Shown here one piece after another: positions 9,350 to 12,386 of a stretch of DNA of 64,000 nt. Positions within the stretch are counted from its first letter, which is position 1, and every line of letters starts with the position of its first letter. Made by a program: the position numbers and the translations under genes. Source of the stretch: Nitrospirota bacterium. GTDB lineage: Bacteria; JACPQY01. Under the pieces are notes generated by a model. It did not search any database. It saw only the letters and a list, made by a program, of their open reading frames with translations, and was not told where the DNA came from. Location: assembly GCA_016180645.1 (NCBI GenBank), contig JACPAV010000006.1:1-64000 (forward strand). Direction: 5' to 3'.

Positions 9350-10951
9350 GTGCGACTTTGCAATGCGGCAAGAGCGTGGGCGGCCACGGCATTTGTCGTT
9401 GGCTCTCTTGGCGCCCGCGCGGCCCAGGCGCACCAGCCCGGGGTCTCGCTCGGCGAGGTACGGGTCGACCTCGGCGCCTTGGAGTGGACCGTGTGGATCT
9501 CCTACGAGGACTGGACTCGGGCCTTCTTCCTCCAGGGGAACATGCCGGTGATCCGGTCGGAGAGCGAGCTTCTCGCGGCGCGGCCGGAGATCGAAAGGGC
9601 GCTGATCGAATTGCTCTCCGTTGAGCACGCCGGCCACGCATGCGAGGGAGTAGCGGAGGACACACGCGAGGCCATCCGGCAAGACCATCCATTCGCCCAA
9701 ACCCGCCTCCGTTTCACCTGCGGACAGGAGTGGGAGTCGCTGACCCTTCACGCTCCGCTCGCCCGATACTTCCTCCCTCAGCACCGCATGTTCGTTACCC
9801 TTCACGGGGTGAAGGGGACCTCCACGCTCCTTTTCGGACCCGGACAGGAAGACATTACCGTGCGGGACTTTGCCGCAAAGATCGCCATTTGGCCGCAGGT
9901 GCCGAAATTCATCCGCCTTGGGATCGAACATATCTTCACGGGCTACGATCACGTCCTCTTTCTCATCGGGCTGATCCTCGGCGCCGGAAGGCTTCGCTCG
10001 CTGATCACCATCGTGACATCGTTCACCGTAGCGCATACGGCCACGTTGGCCGCGGCGACGCTCGGTTATGTTTCGCTCCCACCGCGATTCGTGGAACCCC
10101 TTATCGCACTTTCGATTGTCTACATCGCGGTCGAAAATCTCTGGAGGGAGCCGCGGAAGCGCTTGCCCCACGATGCGGCCATCCGTGGCCGCGAACAGCG
10201 GTCGCAAGCGCCTCCCCCATCCTGGGGGAAGCGGTGGATGGTCACCTTCGGATTCGGATTGATCCATGGTCTTGGCTTTTCGAGCATCCTGCTCAGCATG
10301 AATATCCCGCGCTCCCTGATCGGCGCCGGACTCCTCAGTTTCAATTTAGGCGTGGAAATCGGCCAAGTCGCCATTGTTGCCGTCGTTTACCCGCTCCTCC
10401 ACACGATCGCCCGGTTCTCCTGGCAGCCGAAGCTTCTCCGCGTTGCATCGGCCGGCATTCTCGTTGCGGGCTCCATCTGGCTCATGGAGCGAACCGCTTT
10501 CGCTCACCCCGAGGCAACCTCCTATGCCCGCATCGAAATCACGGACAAGACCGTGCGGATCGAATCATGGATCGGGTCGTGGGAGTGGCAACCGTACCTG
10601 CCGCGAGAGATGGACCCCACGAATCGTCGTTTGAGCGAGAGGGAACTGGTTGCCGGCCGCAGCGACGTGGATCGCCTGTTCTCAGAAACCATTTTTGTAA
10701 AATCAGCCGGTCAGTACTGCCCCCCGAAAGTGGAGGCCCTCAAGCAGCTCGATATGGGCGGGCACAACTACCTGGCCTGCACGCTTGTGTACACTTGCAG
10801 GCGGCCGCTCGCTGATGTCAGGTTGGACGTCCGACTGCCTCGCAAGTTCGGAGGGGGCCATCAAATGATCGCCTCAATCGCCAAGGGCAAGGCGAAGGAG
10901 CGAGTCGTGTTCACTTCGTCCAAAGAGGTTTGGACTCTTAGCCCCGAGTGA
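9350..10951 (+). CDS. HupE/UreJ-like membrane protein with flanking extracytoplasmic domains
   Basis: 533 residues from GTG 9350; signal peptide to ARAAQA then HQP. A soluble domain of about 140 residues precedes the six- or seven-helix HupE/UreJ_2 core, with IEHIFTGYDHVLFLIGL, TSFTVAHTATL, FGLIHGLGF and FNLGVEIGQ, the histidine-rich helices thought to move metal ions such as nickel or cobalt. A second soluble domain (from AHPEATSYARIEI, about residue 390) follows the last helix and looks like a diverged copy of the first. Only 21 bp separate it from the divergent TRAP-type gene. Metal transport is the family expectation, not proven here. Confidence 0.85.
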   Translation: MRLCNAARAWAATAFVVGSLGARAAQAHQPGVSLGEVRVDLGALEWTVWISYEDWTRAFFLQGNMPVIRSESELLAARPEIERALIELLSVEHAGHACEGVAEDTREAIRQDHPFAQTRLRFTCGQEWESLTLHAPLARYFLPQHRMFVTLHGVKGTSTLLFGPGQEDITVRDFAAKIAIWPQVPKFIRLGIEHIFTGYDHVLFLIGLILGAGRLRSLITIVTSFTVAHTATLAAATLGYVSLPPRFVEPLIALSIVYIAVENLWREPRKRLPHDAAIRGREQRSQAPPPSWGKRWMVTFGFGLIHGLGFSSILLSMNIPRSLIGAGLLSFNLGVEIGQVAIVAVVYPLLHTIARFSWQPKLLRVASAGILVAGSIWLMERTAFAHPEATSYARIEITDKTVRIESWIGSWEWQPYLPREMDPTNRRLSERELVAGRSDVDRLFSETIFVKSAGQYCPPKVEALKQLDMGGHNYLACTLVYTCRRPLADVRLDVRLPRKFGGGHQMIASIAKGKAKERVVFTSSKEVWTLSPE

Positions 10952-10964: not shown

Positions 10965-11549
10965 ATGAAAGAGTCGCCCGGATTCACGAAGAAGGGGTAC
11001 ACCTTGGGAGAATTTGTCGGCGCCTTCTCCGCGCTCAGGCCGGCCGCGGGATCCATCATCCGGCTGTATGCCGGACCGAACAAGTTGGAGACCCGTCTCC
11101 GAGAGCGCATCATGCTCAGCGTGGCGCTCACCAACGATTGCCGGCACTGAATTTTCGCCCACAAGCGCCTGGGACAGGCGGCAGGAATGGATTCAGAGAG
11201 TGTCGTCCGGGGTGAGAAGGCAGAGGATGCGAGAACACGTGCGGCGGTGGATTACGCCCTCGGCCTGATTCTGGGCGTTGAGAAACAGCCCGACCTCTCT
11301 TCACACTTTACAGAGGCTCACGCTCAACAGATTCGGGCTGCCGCTTTGCTTCTCAATTTCACCAACCGGGCGGGGAACACGGTGGATCGCTGGCTGTTCC
11401 GGCTCTGGTACCCTGGGAAGGTGAAGGAGAGTTCGTTCCTGGCCGACATGCTGATCGCTCTGCTCTGGGCATCCGTCGCGCTTCCCGAAGGGCTGTGGAT
11501 TCTCCTGCGCGTTCCGCGGTACCGCCGGGCGAAGCCGGCCGCCGCTTGA
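10965..11549 (+). CDS. AhpD-like / carboxymuconolactone decarboxylase-family selenoprotein (UGA = Sec62)
   Basis: One reading frame of 194 codons with a single internal TGA at 11148-11150. Upstream it reads RERIMLSVALTNDCRH and downstream IFAHKRLGQAAGMDSES, which together make the classic CMD/AhpD active site with CxxU (C59, Sec62) and the conserved histidine four residues on (H66) in place of CxxCxxxH. Homology-like sequence continues to the end (LLLNFTNRAGNTVDRWLF is the family's C-terminal helix). A SECIS-type hairpin lies just downstream (11166-11180). Expected role: thiol/selenol peroxidase-like redox enzyme. The alternative is a pseudogene with one nonsense mutation, but the TGA position and hairpin argue for recoding. 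selA, selB and selC are not in this window. Confidence 0.85.
11166..11180 (+). promoter_or_regulatory. Bacterial SECIS-like hairpin
   Basis: CGCCTG (11166-11171), loop GGA, CAGGCG (11175-11180): six perfect G-C-rich pairs. The stem starts 15 bases after the UGA and the loop lies 21 bases after it. A G occupies the first two loop positions, as in the bacterial SECIS consensus recognised by SelB. Confidence 0.75.
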
Positions 11550-11589: not shown

Positions 11590-12066
11590 ATGGAAAAGAG
11601 GTACCCGAGAATTCAGGTCGAAGAGGATCCGGCGAAGTACAATTTCAAAACCAGCCTGCGCGTTCGTTTCGCAGAAACCGACGCTCAAGGCGTCGTTTAT
11701 AACTCCAATTACCTCGTCTACTTCGAGGTGGCGCGTGTTGAGTATTTTCGGAATCTGTTTGGCGAGAACTGGTTCGACGGGCAGCGTCCGTACAATGTGA
11801 CCGTCGGCGAGGCCGGCTGCCGATTCAAGTCCCCGGCCCGGTTCGATCAGGTTCTGGATCTCCACGTGCGCATCGGCGAGATGCGAAACGCCAGCTATGT
11901 GTTCGAGTATCTGATCCGCAACGCCCGAACGGGAGAAGCGGTTGCCGTCGGCTACACCACTTTAGTGACGCTCTCAAAGGACAGCGGCCGCGCCATCCGC
12001 GTTTCGGAGGAAGTGCGTCAGAAGATCATGACATTCGAGAAAGGACACGTCCGGACCGTCGAATAG
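11590..12066 (+). CDS. Acyl-CoA thioesterase, hotdog fold (YbgC/4HBT type)
   Basis: 158 residues. The signature VRFAETDAQGVVYNSNYLVY (residues about 25-44) matches the 4-hydroxybenzoyl-CoA thioesterase family; D31 is the expected catalytic aspartate. A single hotdog domain at normal family length. It would hydrolyse an acyl-CoA to free acid and CoA in the cytoplasm. No partner gene is obvious: it follows the selenoprotein by 40 bases on the same strand and may be cotranscribed. Substrate unknown. Confidence 0.88.
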   Translation: MEKRYPRIQVEEDPAKYNFKTSLRVRFAETDAQGVVYNSNYLVYFEVARVEYFRNLFGENWFDGQRPYNVTVGEAGCRFKSPARFDQVLDLHVRIGEMRNASYVFEYLIRNARTGEAVAVGYTTLVTLSKDSGRAIRVSEEVRQKIMTFEKGHVRTVE

Positions 12067-12152
12067 GGCGTTCAACGGATCAAAGTCGTCGTTCGCTTCA
12101 CGGGGTGCCGACAGGGTTGCCACCCTCGAATCGGAGGTGCCGGACTGGATTC

Positions 12153-12386
12153 ATGAGAAATTCGAAACGGGGAGGAGCAAAGATCCGGCGATTCACGTTG
12201 GAATATTGGATGGATGATGGTTCGTACGTGGGGAGGCTGAAGGAAGTGCCGGGCGTATTCAGTCAGGGTGAAACGCTCGCTGAACTTGAGAAGAATGTCC
12301 GCGATGCCTTTGGAATGATGATCGAGGAGGTCCGTTCCATCGTGTCACGCCATGTTCGCACGAGGGAGATCGGGGTCACGGTCTGA
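12153..12386 (+). CDS. hicB: HicB-type antitoxin
   Basis: 77 residues from ATG 12153 (MRNSKRGG), with GGAGGT about 12 bases upstream. The partial RNase-H-like fold of HicB is visible: EYWMDDGSYVGRLKEVPGVF, SQGETLAELEKNVRDAFG, ending MMIEEVRS. It should bind and neutralise the HicA product of the overlapping next gene. It lacks an obvious added DNA-binding domain, so autoregulation would rely on the short C-terminal tail. GTG 12105 is an alternative start. Confidence 0.82.
   Translation: MRNSKRGGAKIRRFTLEYWMDDGSYVGRLKEVPGVFSQGETLAELEKNVRDAFGMMIEEVRSIVSRHVRTREIGVTV

Follow-up and report, generated by a model that had tools for sequence, protein, structure and literature searches.

The question raised by this locus is whether a UGA codon lying in frame in a gene of the AhpD/CMD family is decoded as selenocysteine (Sec) or interrupts the gene. 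The locus was analysed within a stretch of 64,000 nucleotides (contig JACPAV010000006.1 of a Nitrospirota bacterium), which is referred to below as the window. The gene was located at 10965..11549 (+), beginning with the ATG at 10965 and ending with its own TGA at 11547-11549, which is included in these coordinates. The predicted product is 194 aa long, residue 62 being Sec, and it was assigned on the basis of TIGR00778, Pfam CMD and full-length homologues with Cys at this residue. The sole stop inside the 194-codon frame is the TGA at 11148-11150 (+), codon 62. It is preceded by NDCRH and followed by IFAHKR, and the active-site motif C59-R-H-U62-I-F-A-H66 spans 11139..11162 (+). An earlier note, made from the sequence alone, had described a 194-codon frame broken only by this TGA, with the motif C-x-x-U-x-x-x-H; coordinates, frame and flanks all agreed with that description. 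Standard annotation would truncate the gene at residue 61, or call just a 120-aa C-terminal fragment.

An open frame of this kind is weak proof of a gene in a GC-rich window. On the + strand, 19% of 194-codon stretches contained at most one stop per frame, and the frame alone was rejected as proof for this reason. Coding-like G+C by codon position was kept both 5' and 3' of the UGA at 11148. The gene stands above chance because of homology that extends to either side of the UGA, the exact pairing of Cys codons with the UGA, and a hairpin downstream of it.

Homologues were searched for across 386 genomes. Homologues without an internal stop were found in L027 (34% identity over residues 7-192), L028, L030 and L035. 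These four, the closest full-length homologues, carry C-R-x-C with the second Cys, encoded by TGC, exactly at the position of the UGA. The UGA itself was found at the same codon in three further relatives, L147, L021 and L023; the latter two are lipoprotein-like, contain the motifs CAAU and CVGU, respectively, and both occur in genome G041. Two expectations of the earlier note were borne out by this alignment, namely that family-like sequence continues up to the C-terminus and that Cys homologues have CxxC at the UGA site; no unrelated residue occurred there in L027, L028, L030 or L035. Similarity of the protein to its relatives was only about 30%. A related-locus search with the single protein as query gave no match, and the subfamily alignment offered no sufficiently conserved stretch for such a search. 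No close orthologue was found in the collection, which includes two genomes of the phylum, and the other of the two (84% complete) was without the gene.

The UGA-containing relative L147 (3534-4025, +) is encoded on a Chloroflexi MAG (VGOB01000010.1) and has the sequence NACRYUAHFH around the UGA, without a C-terminal hydrophobic segment. It scored 130 bits against the subfamily profile, versus 63 for the next-best UGA gene among the matches listed. Its neighbour is an unrelated GFO/IDH/MocA gene.

A bSECIS search had been proposed in the earlier note, and a candidate hairpin was found 3' of the UGA. It is located at 11166..11180 (+), with the sequence CGCCUG-GGA-CAGGCG, a stem of 6 bp and a 3-nt apical loop whose start lies 21 nt 3' of the UGA. 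The published bSECIS model describes an apical loop of 3-9 nt, with G in the first two positions, at a distance of 16-37 nt from the UGA (PMC13188914), and the loop GGA, the 6-bp stem and the distance of 21 nt agree with this model. G[G/U]N triloop hairpins were also present 3' of the UGA in the five other Sec genes closely examined. That of selD in the same genome (GUCCAGG-GGA-CCUGGAC, 7 bp, 20 nt) has the same GGA loop as the present gene; L025 has a stem of 7 bp, L021 and L023 of 6 bp, and L147 of 5 bp, each 17 nt after the UGA and with GUU, GUC or GGU as triloop. In the Cys homologues the corresponding stem reached at most 2 bp in 14 of 14 cases, and no triloop hairpin followed the gene's own terminal TGA at 11547-11549.

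As a control, hairpins with a stem of at least 6 bp and a G[G/U]N triloop were counted 14-26 nt downstream of TGA. Hairpins as good as that of the gene followed 0.48% of the 1,873 TGA trinucleotides in the window and occurred in 0.64% of shuffles. The local folding energy after the UGA was unremarkable over the first 43 nt (z = -0.13) and lower over 56 nt (z = -2.47). The case for a bSECIS element therefore rests on the specific hairpin and not on energy.

The apparatus for selenocysteine decoding was searched for in the window's own genome, a draft of 65 contigs with 97% completeness. All four of the genes named for checking in the earlier note, selA, selB, selC and selD, were found. The tRNA-Sec has a UCA anticodon and is canonical (73.3 bits), SelB is full length with its C-terminal part included (369.8 bits), and SelA and SelD scored 556 and 356.9 bits, respectively. 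A SelB-like match at C3:267423 was rejected as a second SelB and taken as EF-Tu; it comprises a 399-aa frame and covers profile positions 1-263 only. Among the genomes with homologues, SelB was above the cut-off in G041 and G276, where the homologues have UGA, and below it in G289, G151 and G375, where they have Cys. G259 runs against this trend, with SelB alongside a Cys form, and no SelB above the cut-off was detected in the phylum's other genome (84% complete). In most cases, SelB presence tracks the Sec/Cys residue.

Two further genes with in-frame UGA were observed in the same genome. The selD gene (L016; G000:C5:71685-72605, +) has a UGA at the usual Sec/Cys site (LARCAGUAGKIGP) and is itself a predicted selenoprotein gene. 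A second AhpD-family gene (L025; G000:C21:105967-106104, -) has its UGA at the second Cys (QDCHYUTQSH). L025 is a member of TIGR01926, with 110.5 bits against a cut-off of 81.8.

Taken with the Cys homologues at the UGA and the downstream hairpin, the decoding genes support the earlier proposal of a probable selenoprotein. On sequence grounds, the product of the gene is almost certainly an AhpD-like thiol/selenol oxidoreductase, with selenocysteine inserted at the UGA of codon 62. A pseudogene would also present a frame intact except for one stop, and one base change, from TGC or TGT to TGA at the conserved Cys codon of a once Cys-containing gene, would suffice to produce it. This nonsense mutation is nevertheless very improbable, as it would have arisen in a genome that decodes UGA as Sec, in a gene with 194 codons free of any other lesion, and ahead of a hairpin that matches those of selD and of the second Sec gene and is missing in the Cys homologues; independent relatives, moreover, have UGA at the same codon. 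Just as improbable is that the UGA is read as another amino acid, either by general reassignment (e.g. to Trp) or by insertion of Cys rather than Sec. Unusual tRNAs do exist in the genome, as an additional Sec-like tRNA was found whose anticodon, GCA, is that of Cys, but this tRNA reads Cys codons and not UGA, and the tRNA with the UCA anticodon is a canonical tRNA-Sec. General reassignment was rejected because the AhpD-family gene itself terminates with TGA. Least probable of all is that sequencing or assembly turned a TGC or TGT into TGA; the draft state of the genome (65 contigs) might allow such an error, but it would need to have produced precisely the Sec codon, in a genome that decodes Sec, just 5' of a bSECIS-type hairpin absent in the Cys homologues.

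The extra tRNA is encoded at G000:C22:24197-24287 (+; L002 1501-1591). It has a long variable arm and the anticodon GCA, and it passes the tRNA-Sec model with 47.2 bits. By eye, its discriminator position is U. A canonical tRNA-Cys is also present (L003 446-518), and the contig that encodes the extra tRNA also carries selA, at a distance of 22 kb. The tRNA is similar to the selC*-type tRNA-Cys (PMC7609411), but appears by eye to be 7/5 rather than 8/4.

Family searches with the predicted selenoprotein were run with Cys substituted for Sec. The protein passed the cut-offs of the AhpD core domain model TIGR00778 (35.9 bits versus 27.8) and of Pfam CMD, PF02627 (26.6 bits versus 23). None of the named NCBIfam subfamily or equivalog cut-offs was reached (NF041047, 14.6 versus 110; TIGR01926, 11.9 versus 81.8), and NF041238 and NF053654 gave no match up to E = 1. 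Structure prediction with AlphaFold, at moderate confidence (pLDDT 68, pTM 0.62), gave a model with the all-helical AhpD fold. The best PDB matches to the model were AhpD-family structures, with a Foldseek probability of 1.00, an E-value of about 5e-3 and a TM-score of at most 0.70 by target length. Residues E47, C59, H61, U62 and H66 align one to one with E118, C130, H132, C133 and H137 of Mycobacterium tuberculosis AhpD (1gu9), whose motif at this site is CSHC...H; both Cxx(C/U)xxxH and the proton-relay residues are thus present. The M. tuberculosis protein differs in having Cys where the gene has Sec, the similarity is remote (E = 0.01 only), and its aligned part is without the C-terminal hydrophobic segment that was found in the present protein. 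This segment comprises residues of about 162-181 (11447..11509, +), has a mean hydropathy of 1.95 and lies in a low-confidence region of the AlphaFold model. It is a possible membrane anchor, and an analogous segment occurs in L027, L028 and L035.

Decoding at codon 62 would proceed by binding of SelB carrying Sec-tRNA-Sec to the hairpin and insertion of Sec at the ribosome. In the predicted protein, U62 would replace the second Cys of CxxC, equivalent to Cys133 of M. tuberculosis AhpD, the peroxide-attacking residue of that enzyme. Residues U62 and C59 would then form a selenenylsulfide, as in the CxxC of AhpD, with E47, H61 and H66 as the putative conserved proton relay. On this view the protein would reduce peroxides or disulfides, and its hydrophobic C-terminal helix might tether it to the membrane. 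A role as thiol/selenol peroxidase or disulfide relay is likely, with peroxidase activity suggested by analogy to the family.

AhpD-like proteins had been named in the earlier note as an established source of bacterial selenoproteins, and this has been on record since 2005. CxxU AhpD-like or CMD-domain selenoproteins were described in 2005 (PMC1088965) and 2008 (PMC2398784) and are covered in reviews of 2022 (PMC9312934) and 2026 (PMC13188914). This kind of selenoprotein is already known and widespread, and the present gene is an unusually divergent member. It shares with the described proteins of the Sargasso Sea and GOS sets (COG2128/TIGR01926, PF02627, NF041047, NF041238) the UGA at the second Cys of CxxC, the AhpD core, Cys homologues and a bSECIS hairpin (PMC1088965, PMC2398784, PMC13188914), but differs in matching at the level of the domain model TIGR00778 only and in belonging to a separate clade. 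The YciW-related family NF053654 is also AhpD-like and already carries '(seleno)protein' in its NCBI name. L027 and L021 are weakly similar to it (28-30 bits), but these scores are far under the cut-off of 310, and the present protein did not match it, as stated above.

In a tree of 29 sequences, the present gene grouped with L147, L027, L028, L030, L035, L021 and L023 in one clade with support of 100/98; the branch of the present gene is long, and its position within the clade is therefore unsure. The clade mixes Sec and Cys forms, and a hydrophobic segment occurs at the C-terminus of several members. The slightly novel element is this clade, a well-supported, unnamed and divergent branch of the superfamily with both Sec and Cys forms. 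A wider reading, offered tentatively and at somewhat less than even chances, is that the gene is the Sec form of an unnamed AhpD-like clade in which some members have a C-terminal membrane helix and Sec and Cys interchange across several phyla, and that its product could be a membrane-associated selenol peroxidase outside the listed prokaryotic selenoprotein families. If the reading as a selenoprotein is correct, one more Sec gene is added in a poorly sampled phylum, and a divergent AhpD-like clade beyond the reach of named models is flagged. Because the clade contains Sec as well as Cys members, some having the hairpin and others lacking it, it would permit a clean comparison of bSECIS gain versus loss.

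A pattern scan of the genome collection (N-x-C-R-[HY]-UGA-x3-H-x7-G) returned at least 115 stretches. At least 51 AhpD-family UGA genes were recognized by HMM among L020 and L046-L160, the present gene counted; those listed belong to Chloroflexota, Gemmatimonadota, Acidobacteriota, Actinomycetota, Bacillota and others. A strict G[G/U]N triloop hairpin was found in about half of the at least 51 genes by a test that ignores other loop sizes, and the rest may use other bSECIS shapes or loop sizes. Among the matches listed, AhpD-family genes with CR[YH]U were common in soil and groundwater MAGs.

The gene is flanked upstream by a gene for a HupE/UreJ-like membrane protein (9350..10951, +) and is followed, after 40 bp, by a gene for a 4HBT-type acyl-CoA thioesterase-like protein (11590..12066, +). 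Co-transcription of the AhpD-family gene with the thioesterase-like gene is possible. An assignment of function from these neighbours was rejected, as no clear functional link was seen. Further downstream, at 12105-12386 (+) of the window, a small gene shows weak UPF0150/HicB-like similarity, with 25.7 bits just under the Pfam cut-off of 27.3.
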